From: Flavobacteriaceae bacterium
Lineage (GTDB): Bacteria > Bacteroidota > Bacteroidia > Flavobacteriales > Flavobacteriaceae
Length of the DNA: 64,000 nucleotides
Reading direction: 5' to 3'
Assembly (NCBI GenBank): GCA_002746415.1
Contig: NVXD01000017.1
Coordinates: 124,001-188,000 of the forward strand
Made by a program: the position numbers and the translations under genes. Of this stretch, positions 7,728 through 49,392 are shown one piece after another; positions within the stretch are counted from its first letter, which is position 1; the number at the start of each line of letters is the position of its first letter. The notes under the pieces were generated by a model. The model ran no database searches and had not been told where the DNA came from. It saw only the letters and a program-made list of their open reading frames with translations.

Positions 7728-9137
7728 TTATAAACTTGTTGGACACACATAATTTGTTAGATTCAAGTCTGTTTTCTTAATTGCCGCAAACCCTCCTGCT
7801 ACATCAATTAAATTATGGATACCCCTGCTCTTTAATATAGACGCCGCAATGATGGAGCGATATCCTCCAGCGCAATGCACATAAAAAAGCTTGTCTGATG
7901 GAAATTCCGTCAAATGATTGTTCAACAAACTTAAGGGGCTGTTGATAGCACCTACTAAATGCTCTGATTGGTATTCACTTTCCTTACGAACATCAAAAAC
8001 TGAGTCATTATCGGCGGCAATAGCCTCTTTCACATCGGCTACAGAACGTGATGTAATGGTATCAATCTCTTTACCTGCCTTTTTCCATGCTTTTAACCCT
8101 CCTTCTAAAACACCTAGGGTATTATCAAACCCCACTCTCGATAATCGGGTTACTGTTTCCACTTCTTGACCTTCAGGAGTAATCAGTAAAATAGATTGTT
8201 CTACATCGGCAATCAACGCACCTACCCATGGTGCAAAGTCACCGTTCAATCCAATAAAAATAGACCGTGGCACATGACCTTTTATAAAATCCTCTTGATG
8301 GCGCACATCCAAAACAATTGCCCCAGTTTCATTGGCAGCAGTTTCAAAAGCATTCGGAGACAATAAGGCTGTTCCCTTTTGTAACACTTCTGCAATATCT
8401 TGATACCCTTCTTTGTTCATTTTTACATTTAAGGGGAAATATTTTGGAGGAGGTAAGAGTCCGTCTGTAACCTCTTTTACAAACTCCTCTTTAGTCATAT
8501 CAGCTCTCAGGGCGTAATTCACTTTCTTTTGATTACCCAAGGTATCCACCGTTTCTTTCATCATATTCTTTCCACAGGCAGAACCTGCACCATGGGCAGG
8601 ATATACGATAACATCATCCGCTAAAGGCATTACTTTACTTCTAAGGCTATCAAACAATAATCCAGCTAAATCTTCTTGGGTCATGTCTGCAGCTTTCTGG
8701 GCAAGATCGGGTCTCCCTACGTCACCTAGAAATAAGGTGTCACCAGAAAAAATAGCATGATTCTTTCCATCCTTATCCCTTAAAAGATAGGTGGTACTTT
8801 CCATGGTATGCCCTGGCGTATGCAGAGCCTTTATCGTTACTTCTCCCAACTTAAACTCTTGTCCGTCTTCTGCTATAATGGCATCAAAAGATGTATGGGC
8901 AGTGGGTCCAAAAACTATTGAAGCACCTGTTTCCTTGGCCAATGTTACATGTCCACTCACAAAATCTGCATGGAAATGGGTCTCAAAAATATATTTTATT
9001 TTGGCATCATCCAGTTTTGCTCTGTTGATATATGGATGCACCTCTCTTAGTGGGTCTATAATTGCTACCTCACCTTTACTCTCAATATAATAAGCGCCTT
9101 GAGCAAGGCATCCCGTATAAATTTGTTCTATTCTCAC
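7728..9137 (-). CDS. CstB-like persulfide dioxygenase fused to two rhodanese domains
   Basis: A 469-residue fusion. Residues 1-200 are an ETHE1-type metallo-beta-lactamase fold with iron ligands in THFHADF (His54, His56, Asp58), His110, Asp133 and His182. Residues about 260-355 form a rhodanese fold without a catalytic cysteine (LLITPEGQE where the Cys loop should be). Residues about 365-465 form an active rhodanese with Cys422 in VHCAGGYRS. This order matches CstB, which oxidises low-molecular-weight persulfides to sulfite and transfers sulfur to yield thiosulfate. The start is a GTG, chosen because the N-terminus MRIEQIYTGC matches the family. It lies 62 nt downstream of the SulP gene and has a GTAA-N6-TTAC palindrome upstream, suggesting joint sulfur-responsive control. 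Confidence 0.9.
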   Translation of the reverse strand: MRIEQIYTGCLAQGAYYIESKGEVAIIDPLREVHPYINRAKLDDAKIKYIFETHFHADFVSGHVTLAKETGASIVFGPTAHTSFDAIIAEDGQEFKLGEVTIKALHTPGHTMESTTYLLRDKDGKNHAIFSGDTLFLGDVGRPDLAQKAADMTQEDLAGLLFDSLRSKVMPLADDVIVYPAHGAGSACGKNMMKETVDTLGNQKKVNYALRADMTKEEFVKEVTDGLLPPPKYFPLNVKMNKEGYQDIAEVLQKGTALLSPNAFETAANETGAIVLDVRHQEDFIKGHVPRSIFIGLNGDFAPWVGALIADVEQSILLITPEGQEVETVTRLSRVGFDNTLGVLEGGLKAWKKAGKEIDTITSRSVADVKEAIAADNDSVFDVRKESEYQSEHLVGAINSPLSLLNNHLTEFPSDKLFYVHCAGGYRSIIAASILKSRGIHNLIDVAGGFAAIKKTDLNLTNYVCPTSL

Positions 9138-9193
9138 AATCTTTCAATCTTAATTAGTCACTCCAAAAATACAGCTATTAATCTATGTGGAAA

Positions 9194-9207
9194 GTAATAT
9201 TAGTTAC
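9194..9207. promoter_or_regulatory. Palindromic site GTAATATTAGTTAC upstream of the persulfide dioxygenase
   Basis: A 14-bp interrupted palindrome (GTAA-N6-TTAC) lies 56 nt upstream of the CstB-like start and overlaps the last codons of the SulP gene. A near-identical site precedes SulP itself. Size and symmetry suit a Crp/Fnr-type dimer, and such a regulator is encoded at 13449-14090. The pairing of regulator and site is inference. Confidence 0.45.
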
Positions 9208-10930
9208 CACTATTTAAGTTCTGTCTTGCTACTTTTCCATGTATGGATGACACTTCTTCCGGGTTATCAAAATAAGCCACAGCTTCTTTTGTTTGTACAA
9301 AAAGGTGCTCCTGATGCAGAACATCTACAATACCACTACTGAAAATAACATCTCGAGTTGGTCCAATAGCTCCTGCAACATAAAATTGTAAACCTTTTCC
9401 ATGAATTTCTTGAATCACTTTTACCAACATCTTGGCGGCAGTGGAATCTATATAATTAATGGCCTCTGCATTTAAAATCACTCCTTTTAGTGCGTTCCCC
9501 TTACTTTCGATATGTTTTAATAATTGCTGCTTAAAAAAACTAGTGTTGCCAAAATACAATTGGGAATCAAACCTAACAATAAGCAAATCTTTCCTTATTA
9601 CTACCTCATCACCAAAACGATTTACATTTTTGTAATAATCAGATTTTTTTATATTTCCTAAAACAGCAAAATGAGGTTTGGATGTTCTGTATACCATCAA
9701 CAATAAAGAGAACAGCACACCTACTAATATTCCTTCCTTTATCCCAACAAACAAAGTCAACAAAAATGTGACTAGTAGTACCACAAATTCATCTTTTCTA
9801 TGTTTCCATAAGACCTTTGCGTAACCAACATCTATCAGACCAAATACAGAGACCATAATAATAGATGCCAATACAGCATTTGGCAAATAGTATAACAATG
9901 GTGTTAAAAAGAGTAAGGTAATAACCACCATTATAATGCTTATAACCGATGCTATGGGAGTTTTTACACCCACTTCGCTATTGATGGCTGAACGGGAAAA
10001 ACTTGCGGTTATTGGAAAGGATTGAAAAAATGAACCTACCATGTTAGAGGCTCCCAAAGCAATTAGTTCTTGATTGGGATTGATGGTCTCTTCGTTACTA
10101 TTCTCTTCTATTGCTTTCCCTATGGATATGGCTTCCAAATATCCTATCAAAGCCAAAGTTAAGGCAATAGGCCACAAATCTTTAACATTTTGCATACTGA
10201 ACTCTGGCATATTAAAAGAGGGTAGCCCCTTGGGAATGACACCCACCAATTTAATTCCCATATGTTCTAACTCTAAAAAATATGTTCCCAAGATTCCCAG
10301 TACTACTGCTACGAGTATGGCAGGTATTCTTTTGTTCCATTTTCTAAGAAGAATAATAAAAATAATTCCTATTGCCCCTATAGCAAAATCATAGGCATTC
10401 GTTTCTGGAATTTTCTGAAAAGCATTAAACATGAGTTTATGAAACTGATTGTTTCCCTCAATATGGGTTCCCAATAAGTGTTTTAACTGACTGAACATTA
10501 TAATCAGTGCTGCCGCAGAGGTGAAACCACTAATAACAGGTTTGGACATAAAATTGACCAAAAAGCCCATTCTAAAAACGCCTAACATAAATTGAATGGC
10601 ACCCACTAAAAAAGCAAGCAAAATGGCCATTGCAATATAATTCTCTATTCCAATGATAGAAAGTGCCCCCAAACCCGCAGCAACCAATAGAGAATCCATA
10701 GCCACCGGTCCTACGGCCAACTGTCTAGATGTACCCAACACCACATACATTAACAACGGAAACAAGGACGCATACAAACCATAAACTGGTGGTAAACCAG
10801 CGATCATTGCATATGCCATACCTTGAGGAATTAATATAATCCCTACTGTTAGTCCGGCCACCAAGTCTTTGGCAAAAAACTTTTTCTTATAATGAGGCAA
10901 CCATTGCAGTATCGGAAAGAATCTTTGCAT
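9200..10930 (-). CDS. SulP-family anion (sulfate-type) transporter with STAS domain
   Basis: A 576-residue inner-membrane transporter. The SulP signature region AGLTVGIILIPQGMAYA begins near residue 27 and is followed by about a dozen hydrophobic segments. A cytoplasmic STAS domain occupies roughly residues 440-560, with the characteristic YIDSTAAKML motif. SulP proteins move sulfate, bicarbonate or other anions; the substrate is not readable from sequence. It lies upstream of, and on the same strand as, the persulfide-oxidising CstB-like enzyme. A role in moving the sulfur oxyanions made or used by that enzyme is therefore a reasonable inference. Confidence 0.88.
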   Translation of the reverse strand: MQRFFPILQWLPHYKKKFFAKDLVAGLTVGIILIPQGMAYAMIAGLPPVYGLYASLFPLLMYVVLGTSRQLAVGPVAMDSLLVAAGLGALSIIGIENYIAMAILLAFLVGAIQFMLGVFRMGFLVNFMSKPVISGFTSAAALIIMFSQLKHLLGTHIEGNNQFHKLMFNAFQKIPETNAYDFAIGAIGIIFIILLRKWNKRIPAILVAVVLGILGTYFLELEHMGIKLVGVIPKGLPSFNMPEFSMQNVKDLWPIALTLALIGYLEAISIGKAIEENSNEETINPNQELIALGASNMVGSFFQSFPITASFSRSAINSEVGVKTPIASVISIIMVVITLLFLTPLLYYLPNAVLASIIMVSVFGLIDVGYAKVLWKHRKDEFVVLLVTFLLTLFVGIKEGILVGVLFSLLLMVYRTSKPHFAVLGNIKKSDYYKNVNRFGDEVVIRKDLLIVRFDSQLYFGNTSFFKQQLLKHIESKGNALKGVILNAEAINYIDSTAAKMLVKVIQEIHGKGLQFYVAGAIGPTRDVIFSSGIVDVLHQEHLFVQTKEAVAYFDNPEEVSSIHGKVARQNLNSGN

Positions 10931-35914: not shown

Positions 35915-37666
35915 TTAATTCTCGAATACTAGAATATTGTATCCAGAATCAGTCTCTTTTTTCAACTCTATTCTTGTTTGCGTAATAGAAATTAATTTGT
36001 AATCTGAAGTAAGTCCTCCTAATGGAGCTTCATCTCCTAAATTTAGGTACACTTTTAACCCTCCATCAAATCCTCTCACTGCTCTCCATATACCATCAGT
36101 TAAAATTGGGTCTGCATTTAAATTTGATACTGATATATTATGTAGGGCGCCAAATTCAAAAATATAATCTGTGTATTCTGAAGTATTATCCATTTCTCCA
36201 ACAGTATAACTAGCCACAGACCAAGTGTTACTTCTCATAATACTTCTGATTTCAACTAAATCATCGTCTATATGATCATTATCACAGTTTCTTAAAAGAA
36301 TTAGCTCAAAACCTTCAACCTCAAACTTTAAATATCTGTCACCTAAATGTCTCAATGGCCATTCAAAACTTACTCCTGGCTCTTCACCCATTGTAATTGC
36401 CATTACTGGAATATCTTGGTCATTTAGAATAATTTCCCATGTTCCATCTGAAGTAGTTGTACCATTACTCAATGTTACCAAACCTTCTGGCATAAACTTA
36501 AATTCGTATCCTAATAATCTTTCTATTCCTTCACCTTGATAAAATACTCTTTTAATTATCCAACTACATTCTTTTAATATGCTTCTCAAAGTGTCTGGAT
36601 CAGTATTTACGATATCACAGGCTTTATGCATGATTATTTTGTTACCATCATCAGAATAAAGTTTAATTTTACCTTCACCAATTTCATACACTAACCACTC
36701 TAAGGTAAAGTCTACCAAGACGTCAAACTCTAAGTTCAATAATATTCTATGCTCGCCAACTCTAGTACTCCAAGCTCCTTCTAGAATATTTCCTTCTCTG
36801 TCTTTAACAACTACACTACCATTTTCATAGAAATTCATAGCATAATCAAAATACTGTTCCGTACGGTATTGACCATCTCTCTTCACTTCATGAACCAACC
36901 ATGGGCATTTCACTAAATACTCATTTAAACGTTCTTGCGTAAAATCATCATCATTATGATCATTGTCATCATCTTCATCACACGCTTCCTTAGCAGTTTC
37001 AATAGCATGAGCCAACTCAGCATTACTATTCACAACCACTTCAGTTTCATCATAAAGAACCAATGTTACTGGGAAATCTATACTGATAAAATCATGTTCA
37101 TCTGTACCTGCAAAGAAACGTCTCAATTCTCTATCACTGTTTACGGTTACGCTTCCAGTTCTTTCTAAATGCGAGTCAAAAGTGTATAACGTCATTGGAT
37201 ACACAAAATCTATACATTCTATATCATCATCACTACCACCTTCTCTACATTCTTCAGCAATAGCACGTAATTCTTGCTTACTATTAATTGTAATTTCTGT
37301 AAAATCTGCCAACGTAATAGTTATTGGAAAAAGGATTTCCAATAAATCTTCATCTGTATCAACAGCATCAATAATTTCTTCGATTAATCTTAAATCATCT
37401 ATGGAATCAATAGTAAGTTCCAATCCGTTTACTTCAACAGTATATGGAAATTGAACAGCAAAACAACTGGCACCATCCACAATATTATCAAAAGACCCAT
37501 CTTGAGAAGATGTATTTTCAATAAGTTTTGCAGTAGCAGAACTTGCTGATATAGTCTCTTGTTCTTCACCATTTGGTAAAGGTTCAATTTCTTTTTGACA
37601 AGAGGTAAAACTAAGAGCCGCTATAAATAGGGCTGAAAACATGAAGTAACTCAAAAACTTTTTCAT
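35915..37666 (-). CDS. Repeat-containing lipoprotein of the ECF regulon
   Basis: A 583-residue lipoprotein (lipobox TSC, Cys23). The N-terminal half holds tandem units of about 50 residues built on an F-P-h-T-h strand followed by hTINSxxELxxh (FPYTVEVNG, FPITITLAD, VYPMTLYTF, FPVTLVLYD). An Asp-rich linker DEDDDNDHNDDDF follows. The C-terminal half has three lipocalin-like units of about 105 residues, each starting with L-x4-C/N-x-W. Function is unknown; surface display or ligand binding is plausible. It has an ECF-type promoter identical in layout to that of the FecR gene and is divergent from the sigma gene, so it is very likely a target of that sigma factor. Confidence 0.8.
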   Translation of the reverse strand: MKKFLSYFMFSALFIAALSFTSCQKEIEPLPNGEEQETISASSATAKLIENTSSQDGSFDNIVDGASCFAVQFPYTVEVNGLELTIDSIDDLRLIEEIIDAVDTDEDLLEILFPITITLADFTEITINSKQELRAIAEECREGGSDDDIECIDFVYPMTLYTFDSHLERTGSVTVNSDRELRRFFAGTDEHDFISIDFPVTLVLYDETEVVVNSNAELAHAIETAKEACDEDDDNDHNDDDFTQERLNEYLVKCPWLVHEVKRDGQYRTEQYFDYAMNFYENGSVVVKDREGNILEGAWSTRVGEHRILLNLEFDVLVDFTLEWLVYEIGEGKIKLYSDDGNKIIMHKACDIVNTDPDTLRSILKECSWIIKRVFYQGEGIERLLGYEFKFMPEGLVTLSNGTTTSDGTWEIILNDQDIPVMAITMGEEPGVSFEWPLRHLGDRYLKFEVEGFELILLRNCDNDHIDDDLVEIRSIMRSNTWSVASYTVGEMDNTSEYTDYIFEFGALHNISVSNLNADPILTDGIWRAVRGFDGGLKVYLNLGDEAPLGGLTSDYKLISITQTRIELKKETDSGYNILVFEN

Positions 37667-38446: not shown

Positions 38447-41400
38447 TTATTTTAATCTTTTTATCCTAATATTACGAAAATCAAGTTCCGATCCGTGGCC
38501 TAAAAATGCTATATGCCCGTTATTCTTCAATAATCCTGGATGATCCTTATGGTCTAACGTGCCTTGTTTTGAAGCTTCCTTCATATTTCCCTCAATAATA
38601 ACAGACCCGTTTAATACAATTTTAATATAATCCCCTTTTACTATGACCTCCTCAGAGTTCCATTCTCCGACAGCCTTCAAAAATCCTCTTTTCGCAGGCA
38701 TAATCCCATAAACTGAACCATGATATTGATAAGGTTTTAAATTTGCATATATGGGTGCGGTATCGTCCAGTATTTGTAACTCTTTTGCTACGTAAGCAGC
38801 GTCGCCTTCAAGAGGGGTGTGAATACCCAGCCCATTATTGGCGCCAGGGGTTAATTTAAAATCGAACCTAAAAATAAAATCGGAATACTCTTCAACTGTA
38901 TAAAGATTTCCATGGCCTCCCTCCTCAGGTCTTACCACTAATTTGTTCTCTTCCACTAAATAATCAGTTTTATTCCCAGTCCAATGATTCAAATCCTTTC
39001 CATTGAAAAGTGACTTAAAACCTGCAACTCTTTCTTCATCGGATAAAAGCACATCCCCAGAATCAATTTCACGGATAAAAATATTTCTGAATCCCAAATC
39101 TTCACCATGTGCTTGTAACTCAATAGCCTCTTTAACAAAAATGGCGCTCTTACTATCCCAATAATTTTCAAGAATTGCATTATCTGTTACCAGTACACCA
39201 TTTAAATGCACTGTAACCCTTTCGCCCACCATTTTAATTCTAAAGGTATTCCATTCATTTACAGGATTGTCAGCTACTTTTAAAGGCGAGCTTATATTTC
39301 TCTGATTATTATATAATCCTCCAGATCCCACTTGAGCTCCTACATTAATTAAAGCAACATCCCAAATTTGAACTTGTGGAGTTCCCCTTAAATAAATACC
39401 ACTGTCACCACCTTTGGTTATCTTCCAATCTACCAGCAATTCAAAATCTCCATAATCCTTAACGGTACTGATATTATTGTACCCTTCTCCCTTAAAACCA
39501 ATAATTCCATCCTTAATAAACCAATCTTCCATCATTTGTTTATTGGCTTTTGCTTGGGCCCTAGTCATTATCCTTTTTGACATCTTGCCTCTTGCGATAG
39601 GATTTTCAACCAATCCTTCCCAGCCGGTAAAATCTTTACCATTAAAAATGGAAATGAACCCTTTTTCATTTGACATATTGTCCAAAAATTCTTTAACATC
39701 AATTTTGATGTATTGGCTATCGGGTCCTGTTAAATTACTAATGCTTTTTGAAACTATTTCCCTTACCAAATTGCCGCTCAATTCATTCTTTTTTCCAGGA
39801 GTGGGAAGGGCTATTTTAATTGCTGCATTGGATGCTGTTGTAATCAATCCCTTTGTATCCAAATACTCTGAAACAAAGACCAGTGACAAAAACGTTTTAA
39901 TACTACTAGCACTTTTAATAATTTCCTTTTGATCACTCAGGCCCGTTTTAAATGGTATTAATTTCTTAATCAGTAATAACTTCTGGTCATCTGGATAAGA
40001 AGATTTACCCACCTGTGATAAGTAGTACTTAAAGGCACTTGAACGTATTTTATTTTCTAAACTTGTACTTGCTTTTTCAAACAAATAGGGCAATGCATCA
40101 TTATTCCTCCAATTTGCCAAGGCATTCAATGCCACCATTTTTTCTTTGGCACTTCCTAAGTTTAATGATTTCACAACTAGCTTTAGTGACTCATCACTAT
40201 TTAATGCAGGTAAAATAGGGAGAATTTTCCCCTTTTGATCCATTGCGTTATAGGCATCAATAACTACTCTTGAATTATCCTCTTTGGAATTGCCCAAAAC
40301 ATGGATAGCTGCTTTCTGGACATTTGCAATATCGGTAGGATTTTGAGCACTATTAATCAGTCTTATGATAGTTGATAGTTCAGTTGTAGGGGCTAATGAT
40401 GATAATGCCGCATATATCGTGGAATTTAAATCATCGTTCCCGTTTTTAAGCAATGCCACTACCTCATCAAACTTCGATGTTGCACTACGGGCAGCCAAAA
40501 CACTCACTAGAACTTCTTTCCCTCCATCCATCATCTCACTCATACTGTTTGCCAGCACATTACTGTCTCCAACATCACATACTCTTAACAAAGTGACTTT
40601 TATGGCATTATACTCTTTTGGTAAAGTTGCTTGCTTTAACGCTTTAAGCAATACAGGAAGTGCTTTCTTCTTATCTTGAAAAGCTAAAGCCTTTATTCCA
40701 GCAACTTTTACATTGATATCATTATCTTTTATCGCTACTAAAATGCATTTCTCAAATACAACCGCTTCTTTCCTTTTACTTAGCATTCTAATTAATTGAG
40801 GCTTACCTTCTACTGGCATTTTCTTATAAGCCTTGACCCATTTAGAAACCTCGTTGACCATTAAACCATGTGATGCTGCATTTAAAACTGCTCCCCTATA
40901 TTCATTGTTTTTATGTTTGGCTTCTTTCACCAATGTTTTGGTAAAACTATCCCCGTATATTGCTCTTAAAAGTTGTACTGCGGCCGATCTAAAATGTAAT
41001 TGTGCCTCCGAAGTACAATTTTTTAATAGCGTTTTGCCAACTTCCGCACCAACAAGTACATTTCCTGTCTCGTTAAGTCTATTTCCATAATGGATATAGG
41101 CCAAAATAGCTTTAGATCTATCCAAATTATATTCAGCCTTTTTTACGGCGTCAACAAGGACTTCTTTAGAGCCCTCATCTGCAATTTCGGCTAGGGCCAT
41201 TAAAGATTTTTGCCGTATTAAAATAGAATTATCCACTGCCAGTTGTTCTAAAAGGCCAACGGAAGGGTTATAATTTAATTTCCCCAAGGCTTCTATAAAT
41301 GTAGGCTGTTTTTCAGTATCAGCCTTTTTGGTTGCTTCATAAACAGCTTTAGAAGCCTTTAAAGTACCAATTGACATTAAGACTGCCAGTGCAGGCTTGT

Positions 41401-41860
41401 AAAGTTTATCTTCCCCTAAATATGCGCTTAATACGTGAACACTGGCATCACTTCCACAATGCATTAAACCAGCCATTAAAAATGTTTTAATCTCAGTATT
41501 GGCCATCTTGTCCAAAGCCCTTAGCAAAGCTTCTTCCACAACACTGGTCCCTATTGTACGCTCTCTTCCTCCACTATATCTTGCAACACTTTCAATTGCA
41601 TATCTAGCTTGAGTATCGTCTCCTGTTCCCAATGGAACCAACATATCACAAAATTGAAGAACACCTTCGGAATTCAATCCAATGATCTCTTCCATTAATT
41701 TATCTGAGTGCTCCAAATTTTTTGTTGGTAATTGCGCCAGAATATCTGCCACCTTAGTCTCTAAGGTTCTATTATTTTGGGCATCTATATTATTCGTTGT
41801 GCACAACATCACAAAAAATGCACTTATAATTATATTGATTTTTTTCATTTTTTTAATCAT
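38447..41860 (-). CDS. Exported HEAT-repeat protein with two DUF1080 (3-keto-disaccharide hydrolase) domains
   Basis: A 1137-residue secreted protein: signal peptide (1-27; Met5 is an alternative start), an alpha-helical HEAT/armadillo-type solenoid (about 30-700) and two DUF1080 jelly-roll domains (about 732-931 and 942-1137). Each domain opens with FNGKDxxxW. DUF1080 enzymes cleave 3-keto-glycosides. Its gene starts 4 nt after the stop of a secreted Gfo/Idh/MocA oxidoreductase, an enzyme class that can make the 3-keto group, so the two probably act together in the periplasm. Catalytic competence of each domain cannot be judged here; the second keeps a GIHTPLEGD segment. Confidence 0.82.
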   Translation of the reverse strand: MIKKMKKINIIISAFFVMLCTTNNIDAQNNRTLETKVADILAQLPTKNLEHSDKLMEEIIGLNSEGVLQFCDMLVPLGTGDDTQARYAIESVARYSGGRERTIGTSVVEEALLRALDKMANTEIKTFLMAGLMHCGSDASVHVLSAYLGEDKLYKPALAVLMSIGTLKASKAVYEATKKADTEKQPTFIEALGKLNYNPSVGLLEQLAVDNSILIRQKSLMALAEIADEGSKEVLVDAVKKAEYNLDRSKAILAYIHYGNRLNETGNVLVGAEVGKTLLKNCTSEAQLHFRSAAVQLLRAIYGDSFTKTLVKEAKHKNNEYRGAVLNAASHGLMVNEVSKWVKAYKKMPVEGKPQLIRMLSKRKEAVVFEKCILVAIKDNDINVKVAGIKALAFQDKKKALPVLLKALKQATLPKEYNAIKVTLLRVCDVGDSNVLANSMSEMMDGGKEVLVSVLAARSATSKFDEVVALLKNGNDDLNSTIYAALSSLAPTTELSTIIRLINSAQNPTDIANVQKAAIHVLGNSKEDNSRVVIDAYNAMDQKGKILPILPALNSDESLKLVVKSLNLGSAKEKMVALNALANWRNNDALPYLFEKASTSLENKIRSSAFKYYLSQVGKSSYPDDQKLLLIKKLIPFKTGLSDQKEIIKSASSIKTFLSLVFVSEYLDTKGLITTASNAAIKIALPTPGKKNELSGNLVREIVSKSISNLTGPDSQYIKIDVKEFLDNMSNEKGFISIFNGKDFTGWEGLVENPIARGKMSKRIMTRAQAKANKQMMEDWFIKDGIIGFKGEGYNNISTVKDYGDFELLVDWKITKGGDSGIYLRGTPQVQIWDVALINVGAQVGSGGLYNNQRNISSPLKVADNPVNEWNTFRIKMVGERVTVHLNGVLVTDNAILENYWDSKSAIFVKEAIELQAHGEDLGFRNIFIREIDSGDVLLSDEERVAGFKSLFNGKDLNHWTGNKTDYLVEENKLVVRPEEGGHGNLYTVEEYSDFIFRFDFKLTPGANNGLGIHTPLEGDAAYVAKELQILDDTAPIYANLKPYQYHGSVYGIMPAKRGFLKAVGEWNSEEVIVKGDYIKIVLNGSVIIEGNMKEASKQGTLDHKDHPGLLKNNGHIAFLGHGSELDFRNIRIKRLK

Positions 41861-41864
41861 TGTA

Positions 41865-43133
41865 TTAGTATGCCCATGAACTTCTCATAGGTTGATTTAT
41901 TAATCTATTTGCTTCTTCGTCATTGATGAATTCTTGCTTTTCCGAATCAAACTCTAAAGTCCTTCCTAAACGAAGGGCTATAATGCCCATATTCACAATA
42001 GTAGCAGAACGATGTCCGTTCTCTTCATTTAAGGCGAATTTCTGTCTGGTTTTCACTGCCTCTGAAAAAGTCCCTATTTGCTCTTCTGGGTCTGGCATGC
42101 TATCTATTAATCCTTGGACATTGGGAATAGTAGATTTAAACCCATTGTATATTTTTCCATTGGGACCTTCAATATATGCGGCATCTTTATCCCTATTCTC
42201 CCCATCTAAAATTATTTGGCATCCGTCTGCATAGGTATATGTAATTTTCCTCCAGGCACCTATCGCATCATAATGTTGTTGTGGAGCATCCACTTCTACT
42301 TTTACAGGACTGGTATTATCTTTTCCCAAAAAATATTGTACGGGATCTATATAGTGCTGACCCATATCCCCAAGTCCTCCCCCGTCATAATCCCAATACC
42401 CCCTAAAGGTTGAATGCGTTCTATGTGGATGATAAGGTTTTTCTGGTGCAGGACCCAGCCACATATTGTAATCAAAATGCTCTGGAACATTTTGTGGTTT
42501 TAAATTCTCTTTTCCTACCCAGTAAAATTTCCAATTAAAACCAGTAACACCACTAATAGTGACCTTTAAAGGCCACCCCAAAGCACCACTATCTACAACT
42601 TTTTTAAGGTTTTTTACTGGAGTTCCCATTCCATAAAAATTATCCTTAAAACGGAACCATGTATTTAATCTGAACATTTTCCCATGAACCTTCATTGCTT
42701 CAACTACCCGTTTCCCTTCCCCAATGGTTCTAGTCATTGGTTTTTCACACCAAACATCTTTACCTGCTTCTGCTGCCATAACAGACATAATCCCATGCCA
42801 ATGGGGTGGAGTTGCGATATGAATTATATCAATATCTGGTCTCTGTAATACTTCCCTAAAATCACGATACCCTTTTACATCACCCCCAACTTTTTGAAGT
42901 GTTTTGGCTAGGTGCTGACCATCTGCATCACAAATTGCCAATAATTTTGTGTCCTCATAATTTAAATGTCCTTGCCCCATTCCTCCAACTCCAATTACCG
43001 CCTTAGTAAGTTGATCACTGGGAGCCAAGAAGTTGACACCTCCCAAAACATGTCTTGGAACAATTGTAATACCTGTCGCTATCGCCAAAGTTTTCTTAAC
43101 AAAACCTCTACGATCATTTGTTTTTTTCATCAT
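41865..43133 (-). CDS. Tat-exported Gfo/Idh/MocA-family oxidoreductase
   Basis: A 422-residue NAD(P)-dependent oxidoreductase. The start is placed at the ATGATG of 43128-43133 because it yields a twin-arginine signal (NDRRGFVKKTLAIATG); the open frame extends 64 codons further but that part looks non-coding. The Rossmann motif is VIGVGGMGQGH and the family EKP motif is CEKPMT. Export by Tat implies that the cofactor is bound before translocation. With the DUF1080 partner immediately downstream it is likely to oxidise a glycoside at C3 before cleavage. The substrate is unknown. Confidence 0.86.
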   Translation of the reverse strand: MMKKTNDRRGFVKKTLAIATGITIVPRHVLGGVNFLAPSDQLTKAVIGVGGMGQGHLNYEDTKLLAICDADGQHLAKTLQKVGGDVKGYRDFREVLQRPDIDIIHIATPPHWHGIMSVMAAEAGKDVWCEKPMTRTIGEGKRVVEAMKVHGKMFRLNTWFRFKDNFYGMGTPVKNLKKVVDSGALGWPLKVTISGVTGFNWKFYWVGKENLKPQNVPEHFDYNMWLGPAPEKPYHPHRTHSTFRGYWDYDGGGLGDMGQHYIDPVQYFLGKDNTSPVKVEVDAPQQHYDAIGAWRKITYTYADGCQIILDGENRDKDAAYIEGPNGKIYNGFKSTIPNVQGLIDSMPDPEEQIGTFSEAVKTRQKFALNEENGHRSATIVNMGIIALRLGRTLEFDSEKQEFINDEEANRLINQPMRSSWAY

Positions 43134-43190
43134 AGTATGTTCAATAATTTTAAAAGATTTAAACAAAGAAATAAGGCCTTGTGTAAAATA

Positions 43191-43212
43191 TGGGGTAATG
43201 AATGGGGTAATG
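43191..43212. promoter_or_regulatory. Direct repeat TGGGGTAATG x2, candidate operator
   Basis: Two exact 10-bp copies with a 12-bp period lie 58-79 nt upstream of the Gfo/Idh start, in the 262-nt gap (43134-43395) that otherwise holds nothing recognisable. Direct repeats near one helical turn apart are the normal target of OmpR/SARP-type winged helices, and the neighbouring gene encodes such a domain. Confidence 0.45.
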
Positions 43213-43395: not shown

Positions 43396-45720
43396 TTAAA
43401 AGGGAGCGTGGTCTTCTGAAATCATATCTTCAAAAGAAATAACATACGTTTCCTTGTACAGTTTATGATAAAGTTTTGTGAAATTGTCATACACAGAGTG
43501 TGCCAAGCTAAGTTTCCCCTGTTTTATTAAAATTTGAAGTTTTAACTGAAGTGCTTTTTCATTTAAATCATCATAGATATACATCACTTCAGCTATATTG
43601 AAAAGTAAATCGCCATGCTTATCACCATTCAATTTTTTAGACAATTGAGAACACTGTTCTATTACTACATTACTAAATTTCTCAAGATAGGGGTCTAACC
43701 AAGCTTCACTACTATTGGCCAAAAAACGGCCTTCTTTTAGAACAGCAATAAATTTTGGCAATTCTTTTTCTAGAGAAGTCAATGAATAATCTTCTTTTGC
43801 AAAATAATTCAGATAGTTTAAAGCCATATGATAATCACAATAGCATCGTGTTTCAATTTCCAAAAACCATAGTTTATCTTCAAATACTAAATTGATTCCT
43901 GAAATAGGAACTAGGATAGTTCTGAGATTTTGTATACTTGTCCCTCTAGTGTTTTTTGCACTTTGCACAGTCATTCCAGGCCAAAGCAATTCTGTCAATT
44001 TTTTGGTGCTAATTCCTTTTTTCATTCCATAACTATGCAAAAAAACTACTATAAATAGTCGTTTTAACATTGGAGATAATTTTTTAGCAATATCAATCCC
44101 GGCTTCATTTAATATCCGCAAGGTCCCAAAACAAAGTAACTGTTCTTTTTTATTGCTTGTTACTGCATCATCAACATTGAATTGTATTGCTTGTGAGAAA
44201 TCAGCTTTTCCTCTGTCTAAACTATTTTTTCTTTTGCCTAAAAAGTACCTAGCTAGGAAAAAAAGCATTAAGAAAATTAATAAGATGACCAGACCCCAAA
44301 TAAAATCACCTATAAGGGCGGTCTCTTCTTTTGATTTTTTGCTAAATTGAAGTTTAATTTCATTGTTATTCAATTCTCTTTCCCAAATTTTGATAGCACC
44401 GAGATACCCTACAAAAAATTCTTCCCAAAGGTTACTTCCTATTAATAAATTATAATCAGAAGTAGCATAATCCGCAATTAACTCCACTCTATCTGTTTGA
44501 TTTCCATCAATAAAAAAACGCAAATCATTATTCACTTTTGAATGTACCAAGGCAATGTGGGTCCATTCATTTATGGGAACTGGTGAAGGTTCTGAAATAT
44601 AATCTTTGATTCCTGCCATCGTGAAGGTTAAAAACCCTTCATGAATTTTTAAAACAAAGAGGTCGCCCTTACCTAAAATACTATTATTTGAGGATCGAGT
44701 AGTAGGTTTAACCCATGCAGTAATAGTAAAACTGGATTTTAAAGTGGATCTACTTTTAATTCCTGTGTCTATATAAGCACGATCTTTAAAAAGACCAACT
44801 GCACCAATTTCGTTATCTCGTTCAAATAAAACACCATTAGTGATAATTCCGGCATCATTCTTCTTGGTTTTATTTTTAACCTTACTTTCAAAAACAAAAT
44901 AATCTGACAACCCAGATTCAGGATCCAATGGTACTCCAATAAACTGTTTTATATTGTCCTGGTTCTCAGGTGTGATAAATATAATATCCGGAGAAAAATG
45001 ATACCCAGCTTTATGAGGCGTTAAAATAGGCTGTATTCCAAGTTCGGGAACCGGAAAACTAAAATACCCATTAGCTTTTCCATCTTTAGAGTTTTTAAAC
45101 GTCACATTCTCTAATAAACGCTCCTTAGTCCTTACCACACCAAAGGCTTTTTTCTTAGCATTGAGCATAGAAACAGAACGTTGCACTTCCTCCAAATTAG
45201 AATTATCTGCATCAATAAAATTAGGAAGTTTTCCCGAACGCTTCCAAATATTAAAAATAAGGCTATCAGAAACATCCATTTTACCCCTATAATCAATACG
45301 ACCCAATTCTTCTAGTCCATTAAATCGTACTAAAGAGTCATTAGTTATTGCAAGAGATGATAAATCAATAGTTTCTACATCCTTATCACCAACTTTAATT
45401 ACAGTTATTTCTTTTGCATCAAGAGAATCTGCATTGCCGTCACCAAGAACAACCAATTGATTATTGTACTGAATATATTCCCTTAAAAAAGACAAGTTGA
45501 CATTGTTATTTTTGGAAAGATTTACAGCTATGGGAATTCTTTTATCGAGGAGAGTCTTTAATTTGGACAAAGGAACTGTATCCAAATTTATTAATACATG
45601 TGACTGTAAGCGTAACGCCAATCTATAATCATTAGACAGCCTCCCATATTCCTGTGCATTTCCAAAACCCACAAAAAAAAGCAGTAATACAGACCAAATA
45701 AAATATGTTGTTCTTTTCAA
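43396..45720 (-). CDS. Transmembrane regulator: periplasmic LamG sensor, SARP-like DNA-binding output
   Basis: A 774-residue protein: signal peptide (1-22), an unrecognised periplasmic region (25-290), a LamG/concanavalin-like domain (about 295-455), one membrane helix (about 472-492), then a cytoplasmic part. The latter has an OmpR/SARP-type winged helix (about 528-625: ISTKKLTELLWPG, then SAKNTRGTSIQNLRTIL) and helical BTAD-like repeats (about 630-755). This is a one-component membrane-spanning regulator, likely sensing a glycan and controlling the Gfo/DUF1080 genes downstream. The start is a TTG at 45720: a stop lies four codons upstream and no ATG occurs before the signal peptide. An AT-rich TAAATTTG hexamer-like -7 element (45744-45751) may be its promoter. 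Confidence 0.78.
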   Translation of the reverse strand: MKRTTYFIWSVLLLFFVGFGNAQEYGRLSNDYRLALRLQSHVLINLDTVPLSKLKTLLDKRIPIAVNLSKNNNVNLSFLREYIQYNNQLVVLGDGNADSLDAKEITVIKVGDKDVETIDLSSLAITNDSLVRFNGLEELGRIDYRGKMDVSDSLIFNIWKRSGKLPNFIDADNSNLEEVQRSVSMLNAKKKAFGVVRTKERLLENVTFKNSKDGKANGYFSFPVPELGIQPILTPHKAGYHFSPDIIFITPENQDNIKQFIGVPLDPESGLSDYFVFESKVKNKTKKNDAGIITNGVLFERDNEIGAVGLFKDRAYIDTGIKSRSTLKSSFTITAWVKPTTRSSNNSILGKGDLFVLKIHEGFLTFTMAGIKDYISEPSPVPINEWTHIALVHSKVNNDLRFFIDGNQTDRVELIADYATSDYNLLIGSNLWEEFFVGYLGAIKIWERELNNNEIKLQFSKKSKEETALIGDFIWGLVILLIFLMLFFLARYFLGKRKNSLDRGKADFSQAIQFNVDDAVTSNKKEQLLCFGTLRILNEAGIDIAKKLSPMLKRLFIVVFLHSYGMKKGISTKKLTELLWPGMTVQSAKNTRGTSIQNLRTILVPISGINLVFEDKLWFLEIETRCYCDYHMALNYLNYFAKEDYSLTSLEKELPKFIAVLKEGRFLANSSEAWLDPYLEKFSNVVIEQCSQLSKKLNGDKHGDLLFNIAEVMYIYDDLNEKALQLKLQILIKQGKLSLAHSVYDNFTKLYHKLYKETYVISFEDMISEDHAPF

Positions 45721-45938: not shown

Positions 45939-46850
45939 ATGCAAGAAAATTATTTAGCAAAATGGCTCAACAATGAGCTTTCTGGAGAAGAACTTAAGGA
46001 TTTTATGAAATCCGAAGCATATGCTTCTTATCAGAAAATAGCTGAAGTTTCCAAAACTATGGAGGCTCCAGAATTCAATGTTGACAAAGCTTTGAACCAC
46101 TTTAAGGATACTAACCTTACTAAAAAGGTTAAAGTAATCCAATTAAACCCTATTAGAAAAATTATGAGAATAGCAGCTGCTGTAGCGGTCATTGCTGTTG
46201 GCTCTTATTTCTATATTGATTCCTTGAATGAGAATATTGCTACTCAGTTTGCAGAGCACACGCAAGTAATCCTACCAGATAATTCTGAAATAGCCCTGAA
46301 TGCAGATTCCCAAGTTTCTTACAGTGAAAAAAAATGGGATAAGGAACGTAATGTCTCTTTAAACGGAGAAGCATTCTTCAAAGTTGCCAAAGGAAAACGC
46401 TTTACTGTATCTACAGAAGATGGTGTAGTTGCTGTTTTAGGCACGCAATTTAATGTAGAGAACAGGGAAGGTTATTTTGAGGTTTCTTGTTATGAAGGCT
46501 TGGTAAGTGTCACCTATAAGGGTAAAGAAATCATGTTGCCCGCTGGAAATTCTTTCCTAGTTATTAATGGAAAGGTAATAGATATGGGTACGCCAAAAGG
46601 CGCACATCCCTCATGGATGGATAATGAAAGCTCTTTTAAAAGTGCTCCCTTAAAATATGTTTTGGATGAATTTGAAAGACAGTACAATATTACTGTTGCC
46701 ACCCAAAATATTGATTTAAATCAATTATTTTCAGGTACTTTTAGCAACACTAACGCAGAATTGGCGTTAGAAAGTATTAGTGTTCCCTCACAAATATTAT
46801 ATAAATTAGAGGGTAATAAAGTACTCTTCTATGCGGAAAGCGCACAGTAA
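45939..46850 (+). CDS. FecR-family anti-sigma factor
   Basis: A 303-residue inner-membrane protein: short cytoplasmic anti-sigma region (1-72), one membrane helix (about 75-93), periplasmic FecR domain (about 104-205: TQVILPDNSEIALNADSQ, VLGTQFNVE) and C-terminal DUF4974 (about 235-300). It relays a signal from the TonB receptor to an ECF sigma factor. Its last 20 nt overlap the receptor gene. The matching sigma gene is not adjacent but 7.6 kb upstream; a shared promoter motif links them. Confidence 0.93.
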   Translation: MQENYLAKWLNNELSGEELKDFMKSEAYASYQKIAEVSKTMEAPEFNVDKALNHFKDTNLTKKVKVIQLNPIRKIMRIAAAVAVIAVGSYFYIDSLNENIATQFAEHTQVILPDNSEIALNADSQVSYSEKKWDKERNVSLNGEAFFKVAKGKRFTVSTEDGVVAVLGTQFNVENREGYFEVSCYEGLVSVTYKGKEIMLPAGNSFLVINGKVIDMGTPKGAHPSWMDNESSFKSAPLKYVLDEFERQYNITVATQNIDLNQLFSGTFSNTNAELALESISVPSQILYKLEGNKVLFYAESAQ

Positions 46851-49392
46851 ATATATTGGTTTTATAGTATGCCTTCTTTTCTTCCTTACTTTTTTCTCCA
46901 GTAAGGCTCAAGAAACACCTGAGGCATCCATAACCCTTATTTCTTATTTACAACAATTGGAAAAGGAGTATGATGTGAAGTTCTCTTATGCAGATGAGCA
47001 TATTCAAAGCTTTATGATTACTAATCCCAAAAGTGAGGGTCTTGAAGGTATTTTGAAAAATATTCAGGACCAGACCCAACTTAAGATCCAAAAAATAAAT
47101 GACCGCTACTATTCCCTTTTTAAAAGTAGTACGGTGGATATTTGCGGACATGTTCTAGACAATTATAAAAACACTTTGGCAAGTGGAGCCACAATAGAGG
47201 TTTTAAATAGTGAAATTGCCCTTCTCACAGATTTTGATGGTAAATTTTACTTAGAAAACATTCCTAGGGATGCTTTACTTCGCATTCGGCATTTGGGTTA
47301 TAAAACTCAATACATTGCTGTTGAAAAACTCACAAATCAGCATCCATGCAAAACCATTTTAATGGGATTGAGCTACGAACAATTAGATGAAGTTATTTTG
47401 TTTGACTTTCTAACAACCGGACTTTCCAAACAAACTGATGCTAGCATCCAATTAAACACAGAGGACTTAGGTATTCTTCCTGGTCTTATTGAACCAGATG
47501 TATTACAAACCATCCAAGCCTTACCTGGCATAAAAAGTATTGATGAAACGGTATCTGATATTAACGTTCGAGGTGGCACCAATGACCAAAATTTAATTCT
47601 TTGGGATGGCATTAAAATGTATCAATCTGGGCATTTCTTTGGATTAATTTCTGCTTTTAACCCTTATTTAACGGATAAGGTAACCGTCATAAAAAATGGC
47701 ACAAGTGCCCAATATGGAGATGGCATTAGTAGTGTCATTAGTATGGAAACTAAAAATGAGATAAAAAACACCTTCTTTGGAGGAGCAGGATTCAACCTCA
47801 TTAGTGGAGATGTTTATGGTCAGCTTCCCATAAGTCAAGATTTGGCCTTTCAGTTTTCGGCTAGGCGTTCTACCACAGATTTTTTCAGCACACCCACTTA
47901 CAATCAGTTTATTGACAAAGCCTTTCAGGATAGCGCCATTAAAATTGGAGATGACCCAACATCAGACAGGAATATTTCCAGAAATGAGAATTTCTACTTT
48001 TACGACTTTACAGCTAAAATTTTATACGATATCACTGAATATCAGAAAATTAGATTCAGCTTCATTAATATCAACAATAACCTAGATTATTTAGAAACTA
48101 TTGAAAACAATAACACAACGGAAAGCTACTTAGACCAAACCAATCTTTCTTTTGGAGGTAGTTTGGAAAGTCAATGGACTCGAAATTTTTCCACTTTGTT
48201 ACATATTTATTATACTCAATATAATATGAATGCGGAGCATGTTTTGGAAAATCAAATCCAACAACTCTCTCAAAAAAATGAGGTTTTGGAAACTGCTGTA
48301 AAACTAAATACCACATATACCTTTTCTGACCAAATTCAGTGGTTAAATGGGTATCAATTTAATGAAACTGGAATTACTAATTTCACAAATGTTTCTTTAC
48401 CAGAATTTAATAGCAATCTTAAAGGAGTCATTAGAACACATTCTGCTTTTTCTGAATTCAAGTATACCTCAGCTAATGAGAAATTATATGCAAGAGGAGG
48501 CGCCCGACTTAACTATATAGAAAATTTAAATACGTTCAAAACGCTGATTATTGAGCCAAGGTTTAACATAAGTTATGCACTTACGGATAATATCAAAACA
48601 GAAATTCAAGGTGAATATAAAAATCAGACAACAAATCAGATTATAGATTTGGAGCAGAATTTTTTAGGGGTTGAAAAACGTAGGTGGCGACTTTCTGATA
48701 ACGACTCTATACCCATCACCAAAAGCAAACAGGCCTCTATAGGGGTTAATTATGACAAAAAGAGACTCTACATAGGTCTGGAGGGCTTCTATAAAGAAGT
48801 AAATGGCGTAAGTACGGTAACACAGGGGTTCCAAAACCAAAATCAATTTAATGGAGAAATAGGTAAATATGATATAGTAGGTGCAGAATTCCTGATCAAT
48901 AAAAAAACACTGCATTACAGCACTTGGTTAAGCTATACCTATAATGTAAACAACTATACATTTGAGGATATCATACCCAATCGTTTTCCCAATAATTTGG
49001 ATATTCGACATCACATCACTTTTGCCGGAATATACACCTACAACAACTTAAAATTGGGTATTGGATTAAACTATAGATCAGGAAGGCCCTTTACCGAGCC
49101 ACTTAATGGAGATAGTGCTATAAATACATTAGACTTTCCAAACACCATAAACTATAATGAACCTAATAGCGATAGGTTACCAACTTATATTAGGGCAGAT
49201 GCATCTGCTACTTACAACTTTGATATGGGAGATAGCGTAAAAGCCACTGTGGGTGCTTCTGTAATCAACATCCTTGATCGAAGAAACCTTTTAAACACCT
49301 ATTATAGGCTCAATGAAAACAATCAAATTGAAACAGTGGAAAGTATTTCTTTGGGCATTACACCAAATTTTAGTTTTAGGGTCAAGTTTTAA
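46831..49392 (+). CDS. TonB-dependent outer-membrane receptor with STN signalling domain
   Basis: An 853-residue receptor: signal peptide (ending SSKAQ), STN domain (about 35-95) that contacts the anti-sigma factor, carboxypeptidase-regulatory-like beta domain (about 105-175), plug (about 210-310, with VRGGTNDQNLILWDG) and a 22-strand-type barrel to the terminal phenylalanine (SFRVKF). It overlaps fecR by 20 nt, so the two are co-translated. No SusD-like partner follows; the next gene converges and overlaps by 11 nt. The ligand is unknown; absence of SusD argues against a large-polysaccharide SusCD system. Confidence 0.93.
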   Translation: MRKAHSKYIGFIVCLLFFLTFFSSKAQETPEASITLISYLQQLEKEYDVKFSYADEHIQSFMITNPKSEGLEGILKNIQDQTQLKIQKINDRYYSLFKSSTVDICGHVLDNYKNTLASGATIEVLNSEIALLTDFDGKFYLENIPRDALLRIRHLGYKTQYIAVEKLTNQHPCKTILMGLSYEQLDEVILFDFLTTGLSKQTDASIQLNTEDLGILPGLIEPDVLQTIQALPGIKSIDETVSDINVRGGTNDQNLILWDGIKMYQSGHFFGLISAFNPYLTDKVTVIKNGTSAQYGDGISSVISMETKNEIKNTFFGGAGFNLISGDVYGQLPISQDLAFQFSARRSTTDFFSTPTYNQFIDKAFQDSAIKIGDDPTSDRNISRNENFYFYDFTAKILYDITEYQKIRFSFININNNLDYLETIENNNTTESYLDQTNLSFGGSLESQWTRNFSTLLHIYYTQYNMNAEHVLENQIQQLSQKNEVLETAVKLNTTYTFSDQIQWLNGYQFNETGITNFTNVSLPEFNSNLKGVIRTHSAFSEFKYTSANEKLYARGGARLNYIENLNTFKTLIIEPRFNISYALTDNIKTEIQGEYKNQTTNQIIDLEQNFLGVEKRRWRLSDNDSIPITKSKQASIGVNYDKKRLYIGLEGFYKEVNGVSTVTQGFQNQNQFNGEIGKYDIVGAEFLINKKTLHYSTWLSYTYNVNNYTFEDIIPNRFPNNLDIRHHITFAGIYTYNNLKLGIGLNYRSGRPFTEPLNGDSAINTLDFPNTINYNEPNSDRLPTYIRADASATYNFDMGDSVKATVGASVINILDRRNLLNTYYRLNENNQIETVESISLGITPNFSFRVKF

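Follow-up and report, generated by a model that had tools for sequence, protein, structure and literature searches.

The stretch of DNA analysed here, 64 kb from a Flavobacteriaceae bacterium (contig NVXD01000017.1; ‘the window’ below means this whole stretch), carries on its minus strand the gene of a 774-aa membrane-spanning regulator and, downstream of it, two genes of glycoside-active enzyme families. Between the regulator and the enzymes lies a tandem heptamer repeat, followed at a fixed distance by a promoter-like box. We consider it probable that the protein is a transmembrane SARP-like one-component activator of the adjacent 3-keto-glycoside operon, with the heptamers as its operator. 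The regulator gene and its predicted parts, all on the minus strand, are as follows.

43396–45720 (minus): coding sequence of the regulator, 774 aa, an intact open reading frame with a TTG start; signal-like N-terminus, periplasmic part, one transmembrane helix and cytoplasmic SARP-like part
44917–45645 (minus): residues ~26–268, periplasmic alpha/beta (TIM-like) part, then a small transthyretin-like beta-sandwich; weak fold matches
44353–44820 (minus): residues ~301–456, LamG / concanavalin-like jelly roll; Pfam PF13385 and pentraxin/LNS-type fold matches
44251–44307 (minus): residues ~472–490, single membrane helix with positive C-terminal flank; from hydropathy, charge and a model helix at 470–497
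43822–44151 (minus): residues ~524–633, winged helix of OmpR/SARP type; from the AlphaFold model and fold match
43411–43821 (minus): residues ~634–770, helical BTAD-like part; AfsR/EmbR matches span winged helix and BTAD

Architecture of the regulator

An earlier note on this DNA had read the protein as a LamG domain joined through one membrane helix to an OmpR/SARP-like winged helix with BTAD-like helices, and this outline has held up. Pfam Laminin_G_3 (PF13385) matches residues 326–456 with an E-value of 2.2e-20 (73.8 bits, cut-off 27.6), and nothing else in the 774 residues exceeds a Pfam cut-off. The scan found no kinase, receiver or sigma domain in the regulator (HisKA, HATPase, histidine kinase, receiver, sigma-70 regions), no AraC-type HTH, Reg_prop or Y_Y_Y, and no FecR-type anti-sigma domain (a FecR gene adjoins), which agrees with the suggestion that the signal passes without a kinase or sigma factor.

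Membrane topology was judged from hydropathy and flank charge. The regulator has one strongly hydrophobic segment, at about 471–489, and the C-terminal flank of this segment carries a net charge of +2 to +7 in all 16 aligned sequences, the window protein included. The N-terminal 22 residues of the window protein resemble a signal peptide that ends in NAQ. In 10 of the 16 sequences, the window protein not among them, a further hydrophobic peak close to the N-terminus exceeds the threshold. Because the single hydrophobic segment has a positive C-terminal flank, an N-out/C-in topology is supported, with LamG predicted outside and the C-terminus inside, that is, with the two soluble parts on opposite sides as had been supposed.

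Modelled whole, the regulator gave a poor AlphaFold result (ten-sequence alignment; pTM 0.38, mean pLDDT 68.6), with LamG and the linkers at low confidence, including a linker of about 30 residues between the membrane helix and the DNA-binding part (pLDDT < 50). Residues 521–770 have pLDDT 68–91 block by block, and the region 528–625 within them is predicted to fold as a winged helix. The best match of this C-terminus in the PDB is AfsR 8hvr (Foldseek E 8.7e-7, Z 15.0, 241 residues, rmsd 4.9), followed by EmbR 2ff4 (Z 14.8), AfsR 8k60 (Z 14.6) and EmbR 2fez (Z 14.4) in the Foldseek and VIA-align comparison. These matches cover the model range 518–773, and therefore winged helix and BTAD together, whereas isolated winged helices (TcpP, SaeR, PhoB, CovR, ToxR) rank lower at Z 8.0–9.7.

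Profile searches were less direct. The LamG search recommended in the earlier note succeeded, while the Trans_reg_C and BTAD profiles gave no match above the curated cut-off in the window protein; among the 16 aligned C-termini, sub-threshold matches were seen for BTAD in five (best E 0.032) and for Trans_reg_C in one (E 0.0037). When the PDB was searched with a profile built from C-terminal sequences, all matches were at chance level. The standard Pfam BTAD profile, with no match in the whole own genome at E 0.01, does not pick up the window regulator. A sequence link between the regulator C-terminus and BTAD is provided by L144, a soluble relative that is hit by the C-terminal profile (E 4.2e-7) and by Pfam BTAD (1.2e-11) alike. 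L144 (positions 7971–9551 of its own stretch) is a soluble MEDS-BTAD protein akin to the membrane-bound C-terminal module.

Of the periplasmic parts, residues 295–455 were borne out as LamG, in a model region of low confidence whose fold matches include pentraxins, the sialoside-binding CBM40 and also neurexin, agrin and laminin domains. The region 25–290, for which a structure prediction had likewise been proposed, is not LamG but a separate alpha/beta part with a small beta-sandwich. Folded alone, this N-terminal part reached pLDDT 82 and pTM 0.81, had no significant Pfam match, and gave weak fold matches to the TIM-like PcrB and thiamin phosphate synthase (Z up to 8.2) and, for the sandwich, to the transthyretin-like SusC NTE domain 9hfj (Z 7.4). 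As a lead from the model, it may thus be described as TIM-like plus transthyretin-like; its family is not nameable from such matches.

Relatives and the neighbouring enzyme operon

The census of the architecture called for in the earlier note shows that it recurs. A contig scan for relatives yielded nine loci. Whole-protein matches were found in 29 of 198 relatives, own genome counted, of which 22 lie in the LamG region only, and the C-terminal domain was found in 27 of 397 family genomes (E 0.001) and 7 of 395 class genomes (1e-5). As the genome searches score few candidates per genome, census counts are lower bounds. Our locus set (n = 48) combines the nine loci with 40 neighbourhoods, less one duplicate, and comprises 37 distinct LamG-type loci, 10 Kelch-type loci and one soluble protein; L109, from the same genome as L002, is excluded from locus counts, and the neighbourhoods of two class-level matches (G553:C63, which is L041, and G300) stand outside every operon count. 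Types were assigned with local profiles, the Kelch profile having been built from four of the ten Kelch-type proteins; Pfam Kelch-type models match all three of the Kelch-type proteins examined.

Since both LamG-type and Kelch-type loci are found, the C-terminal module has been joined to different periplasmic sensors. The Kelch branch (L122, L131, L134, L135, L136, L137, L140, L141, L142, L146) pairs a Kelch-type periplasmic sensor with the same membrane helix–winged helix–BTAD part. L041 (520 aa) has the same C-terminus behind a short periplasmic part with neither LamG nor Kelch, SPOR-like by eye and with no Pfam match above cut-off.

Gene order sets the LamG branch apart. A Gfo/Idh/MocA oxidoreductase gene follows directly on the same strand in 27 of 37 LamG-type loci and in none of the 10 Kelch-type loci (BLAST with three MocA queries; Fisher 3.6e-5, kinship ignored). 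In the window, the proposed target genes are the following.

41865–43133 (minus): proposed target gene 1, Gfo/Idh/MocA oxidoreductase with Tat motif, relative of glycoside 3-dehydrogenase BT_2158
38447–41860 (minus): proposed target gene 2, 1137-aa HEAT-repeat protein with 3-keto-disaccharide hydrolase domain(s)

All 27 adjacent enzymes have a twin-arginine motif near the chosen start, and 20 of the 27 MocA genes precede a 3-keto-disaccharide hydrolase gene, with the PF06439 domain found in partner hydrolase genes. The window arrangement, MocA and then the HEAT/3-keto-disaccharide hydrolase, is present at 16 loci; four others (L115, L117, L118, L125) have a different MocA with a short hydrolase-like gene, recognised as PF06439 by Pfam in L115 and by BLAST in the rest. 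A third group of seven loci (L119, L126–L130, L133) has enzymes of GH109 type, six of them 73–91% identical to that of L119, and the Glyco_hydro_109_C domain is present in both enzymes of this group examined by Pfam. GH109-type enzymes act through a 3-keto sugar, and all three partner types would fit a chemistry of this kind.

The BT_2158 glycoside 3-dehydrogenase is the first-ranked NCBIfam model for the three MocA genes tested, one per group, each far below the equivalog cut-off. The enzymes of the window are thus related to the BT2157/BT2158 3-keto-glycoside pathway, through this model, the PDB dehydrogenases 8tdf/8tdh among the matches of the window MocA, and PF06439; they differ from it in that the window MocA scores 161 bits against a cut-off of 750 and the hydrolase belongs to a 1137-aa fusion with HEAT repeats. 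Two parts of this HEAT protein, around 730–930 and at 939–1137, match solved chains of putative glycosyl hydrolase/3-keto-disaccharide hydrolase type, and it may contain two hydrolase modules.

Regulators and enzymes have not diverged at the same pace. The regulators of L116, L120, L121 and L124 fall in another clade, that of L116 being 28% identical to the window regulator, and the N-terminal alpha/beta part is mostly missing from L116, L120 and L121, yet the MocA proteins of all four are 85–88% identical to that of the window. The sensor therefore evolves, or is swapped, much faster than the enzyme.

Heptamer repeat, promoter-like box and genomic sites

The gap between the regulator and the MocA gene of the window contains the following elements.

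43204–43210 (minus): proposed operator half-site 1, TTACCCC
43192–43198 (minus): proposed operator half-site 2, TTACCCC, 12 bp from half-site 1
43180–43186 (minus): degenerate third half-site, TTACACA, 12 bp further on, ending 8 bp before the –7-like box
43164–43171 (minus): –7-like promoter box TTTCTTTG (sigma-A consensus TAnnTTTG), 39 bp from half-site 1

A motif-free repeat search found a perfect 7-mer repeat with a period of 12 in 25 of 27 regulator–enzyme gaps, the two others (L118 and L129) having imperfect copies. At other periods from 8 to 25, perfect 7-mer repeats occur in at most two of the 27 gaps, and shuffled gaps never gave more than two (here, as for the box, shuffles were simple letter permutations). 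The half-sites read TTACCCC-5-TTACCCC or close to it at 20 loci, TTCACCC-5-TTCACC or close to it at six, and TTCCCCC at L133. A third copy at +24 has on average 4.07 of 7 matches, compared with at most 2.56 at other offsets from +14 to +35; it stands out in the 20 TTA-type loci, at 4.55 of 7.

Downstream of the repeat, a box T[AT]nnTTT[GA] starts 39 or 40 bp from half-site 1 in 26 of the 27 gaps, as against a shuffled maximum of four, and at any other offset from 20 to 59 in at most one gap each; this pattern was fixed only after the gaps had been inspected. The repeats, third copy counted, stop 8 or 9 bp before the box, which resembles the flavobacterial sigma-A –7 consensus TAnnTTTG (PMC9723704). 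In SARPs, heptamer repeats are separated by 4-bp spacers, and the AfsR, Aur1PR4 and FdmR1 sites lie 8 bp upstream of the –10 element (PMC7040171), an agreement in position that was noticed after the gaps had been aligned.

Site type and protein vary together. In the helix equivalent to AlphaFold residues 584–602, all 20 regulators before TTA-type sites have KNTR or KNNR and all seven before TTC-type sites have KENR; at L133, where the site TTCCCCC mixes both types, the helix is mixed too. This covariation is suggestive of a recognition helix that reads the half-site type.

The exact half-site pair occurs once in the 3.82-Mb own genome, at 43192–43210. With two mismatches allowed, the own genome has 21 matches of the site and 47 of a reversed control, and therefore only the exact site stands out. 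Autoregulation was considered and set aside, as there is no second exact site within the 64-kb window.

A census of 397 family genomes returned 27 exact sites, spread over 25 genomes. Of the 27 genomes with the C-terminal domain, 12 have the site, and of the 370 without the domain, 13 (Fisher 2e-9, relatedness ignored), while the reversed pattern is not linked to the domain (7 of 27 versus about 105 of 370 genomes, hand count). Twelve of the 27 census sites are at regulator loci, and one precedes the same MocA/hydrolase operon with its upstream stretch masked. The other 14 have no regulator or enzyme match within up to 1.5 kb on each side, three genomes having been examined more widely. For the GH109-type half-site, five of six exact copies in eight genomes are at regulator loci, with the pattern missing variants in two of the seven GH109-type genomes. 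Sites with the box were found in none of 11 Kelch/other loci, the Kelch-branch stretches among them, and in none of 11 sus loci.

Linkage persists where regulator and enzyme are apart. In the genomes of L006, L007 and L010 the site was searched first. Each contains a single exact site, and immediately behind it come a MocA gene 79–82% identical to that of the window and then the HEAT hydrolase gene; the box is again at +39. In L010, site and regulator share a contig and are separated by 25 kb, whereas in L006 and L007 they are on different contigs; no regulator was found in the stretches beside these distant enzyme operons. In L110, which lacks MocA, a PF06439 gene is preceded by a site with one mismatch and by the box. 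In all, 32 of the 37 LamG-type regulators are tied to such an enzyme and site (27 adjacent, one nearby, four distant) and five are not.

Separately from this linkage, one of the 14 orphan census sites is near an integrase-like gene. In L184, identical TTACCCC repeat copies at 9507 and 19152, 9.6 kb apart, have no regulator match nearby, one of them standing beside an integrase-like gene; they are perhaps the ends of a mobile element. Downstream of the distant regulators in L010 (10331–17716) and L004 (8458–13775) are ECF sigma-, FecR- and SusC-like genes, in L010 also a SusD-like one, as if a polysaccharide locus had been inserted between regulator and enzyme operon.

Proposed mechanism, alternatives and known systems

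We propose that the periplasmic LamG, alpha/beta and beta-sandwich parts sense a saccharide, or else something that the exported enzymes produce; the identity of the partner enzymes is what suggests a glycoside-type signal. The winged helix–BTAD part would stay at the membrane, on its one helix and linker of about 30 residues, and act from there with no proteolytic step, binding as tandem protomers to the two good heptamers and the degenerate one with their 12-bp period. As the heptamers end 8 bp upstream of the sigma-A –7 box, RNA polymerase could be contacted and recruited in the way that SARPs do, activating the operon of the Tat-exported glycoside 3-dehydrogenase relative and the HEAT/3-keto-disaccharide hydrolase for periplasmic breakdown of 3-keto-glycosides.

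Several observations weigh against this proposal. At two mismatches the site shows no clear excess in the window (5 of 100 shuffles had as many), and across the family the reversed control is commoner than the site (about 112 of 397 genomes, hand count, versus 25 of 397), so that raw frequency proves nothing. Both G779 copies of the site, away from enzyme and regulator matches, have a box at +39/40, and site plus box can therefore occur elsewhere. The L004 genome has no exact site; there a degenerate version, which keeps the 12-bp period with a TTCTTTG box in the same place, was found via the enzyme (MocA 86% identical to that of the window; it shares a contig with the regulator and is 31 kb away) and not via the site. 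The third half-site is unclear in most of the seven GH109-type loci, and the proposed operator has 5-bp spacers where SARP sites have 4-bp ones (PMC7040171). The types of site, helix and enzyme track clades, so their counts are not independent, and as the helix changes follow the tree (which leaves out L109, L143, L140 and L144, as duplicate or too short a match), the match between helix and half-site is not proof. Five of the 37 LamG-type regulators (L132, L138, L139, L143, L145) have no adjacent enzyme or site in the stretch searched. Finally, LamG folds bind proteins too.

This last point leads to the least improbable of the alternatives, in which the LamG part serves protein interaction or anchoring and the signal is, for example, a partner enzyme. 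The neurexin, agrin and laminin domains among the LamG fold matches, beside pentraxins and CBM40, would suit it, as would the loss of the N-terminal alpha/beta part from regulators of the same operon (L116, L120, L121). The partner genes examined belong to glycoside-active families, however, and we regard a non-saccharide role as possible but rather unlikely.

It is also conceivable, although we doubt it, that the regulator works by regulated intramembrane proteolysis, with a ligand-triggered cut near the membrane helix freeing the winged helix–BTAD part to reach the operator. The low-confidence linker does lie between the helix and the DNA-binding part, and a freed domain would easily reach sites 25 kb or more from the regulator gene. 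Against this, no recurring protease gene was noticed by eye among the neighbours in 27 loci, none having been specifically searched for, and other transmembrane regulators work from the membrane (PMC10269533).

Still less probable is a repressor that sits next to the –7 box and blocks polymerase until a ligand frees it. Half-sites just upstream of the box are in a position typical of repressors too, but the SARP-like effector fold with BTAD speaks against repression, as do the fixed 39/40-bp spacing and a –7 box that is often off consensus (TTTCTTTG, TAnnTTTA), as expected for an activator-dependent promoter.

We give little credence to the idea that another factor binds the repeats and that adjacency reflects shared operon history only. 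Regulator, site and enzyme do mostly sit together, and the two G779 copies have no regulator match nearby; yet site and regulator share genomes even when apart, the half-site type tracks the recognition helix, and the site with its box is absent from the 11 Kelch/other and the 11 sus loci. Membership of the SusR family, whose general plan is alike and whose SusR4 is linked to a 3-keto operon (below), is extremely improbable, given that the SusR-like proteins of four loci are TPR–transmembrane–DUF6377 proteins scoring E 2.5 or worse against the C-terminal profile.

Among known systems, the proposed transmembrane activator is closest in fold to the SARPs AfsR (8hvr, 8k60) and EmbR (2ff4, 2fez), with which it shares a winged helix followed by BTAD and, by proposal, heptamer direct repeats. 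AfsR and EmbR are actinobacterial and cytoplasmic. SARPs are best known as regulators of antibiotic clusters in actinobacteria and have a repeat period of 11 bp, whereas the window regulator adjoins a glycoside-enzyme operon in Bacteroidota, with a period of 12 bp and the effector placed C-terminal to LamG and one membrane helix. Its predicted fold is that of SARPs; its sequence stays below the profile cut-offs, the proposed operator has 5-bp instead of 4-bp spacers, and the setting is not an actinobacterial antibiotic cluster.

The ToxR/TcpP/CadC regulators share a winged helix in a membrane-spanning chain, and those of TcpP and ToxR were matched by fold. They are not known to have BTAD, and their winged helix is N-terminal to the membrane helix; here it is C-terminal, with a signal-like N-terminus outside. 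By prediction the regulator is a transmembrane one-component regulator, having DNA-binding domain and membrane helix in one chain and its sensor outside. Transmembrane transcription regulators are widespread and enriched in Bacteroidota; in the main text of the paper that describes them, a word search finds neither SARP nor BTAD nor LamG (PMC10269533).

Within Bacteroidota, the SusR family likewise combines a periplasmic sensor, a membrane helix and a C-terminal DNA-binding part with saccharide operons. Membership was tested and rejected with SusR-like proteins from four of 11 stretches with SusE/F (PF16411) genes, which are unrelated by the C-terminal profile; they were named by plan and context, a fifth candidate (L097) being a PAP2 protein and not counted. 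In these four context-chosen proteins TPR and DUF6377 stand in place of LamG and winged helix–BTAD, and the boxes of predicted SusR motifs are 67 or 77 bp apart, measured from centre to centre (PMC3878776), compared with 12 here. B. thetaiotaomicron BT2160 is listed as SusR4 (PMC3878776) and described as the regulator of operon BT2156–BT2160 (PMC11879859), in which BT2157 is a 3-ketotrehalose hydrolase (PMC9007349). Two unrelated regulator types therefore seem to serve related enzymes. Like the proposed regulator, Bacteroides hybrid two-component systems sense saccharides in the periplasm and bind DNA with a single chain; as reported above, their kinase and receiver domains are not found here. 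The regulator thus differs, as the earlier note had anticipated, from the known Bacteroidota saccharide regulators compared, being neither a DUF6377/TPR SusR-like protein nor one with a kinase, receiver or sigma domain.

Among the literature matches listed (titles and abstract starts, most subscription papers being outside reach), we found no description of a LamG- or transmembrane-linked SARP-type regulator. A SARP-like C-terminus with a membrane-bound sensor and with a candidate site and target operon of its own would be a known regulator design in an unusual combination. Going further, and with somewhat less assurance than for the activator itself, we lean towards a further Bacteroidota class of saccharide signalling beside hybrid two-component systems, ECF/anti-sigma pairs and SusR. 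In this class, LamG or Kelch sensors would be joined through a membrane helix to a SARP-type activator, and the LamG branch, dedicated to exported redox glycosidase operons (3-keto-glycoside, GH109-like), would act as a membrane-bound activator on tandem heptamers, with recognition helix and half-site related by a readable code. Such a class would extend an activator design best known from actinobacterial antibiotic control to a membrane-bound Bacteroidota sensor. It is also a candidate explanation for the control of exported 3-dehydrogenase/hydrolase operons in these bacteria. As the site is found only once in the genome, keeps a fixed spacing to the promoter-like box and marked the operon at a distance, one reporter could reveal ligand and mechanism; the site is recognisable in dozens of relatives, and signalling of this unusual kind can thus be put to a direct test.

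Other features of the surroundings are of lesser weight. In the window, a 583-aa open reading frame at 35915–37666 (minus) has no Pfam match at E 0.01. Divergent from the regulator, at 45939–49392 (plus), are a FecR anti-sigma gene and then a TonB-dependent receptor; the gap between these genes and the regulator has no open reading frame of at least 120 aa, and so no ECF sigma gene. Both were dropped as candidate partners, since the genes upstream of the regulator vary among the loci read and this pair was seen immediately upstream of none of the other regulators inspected. In other genomes, L143 and L145, two LamG-type loci without the enzyme pair, stand next to genes that look sulfatase-like by eye.

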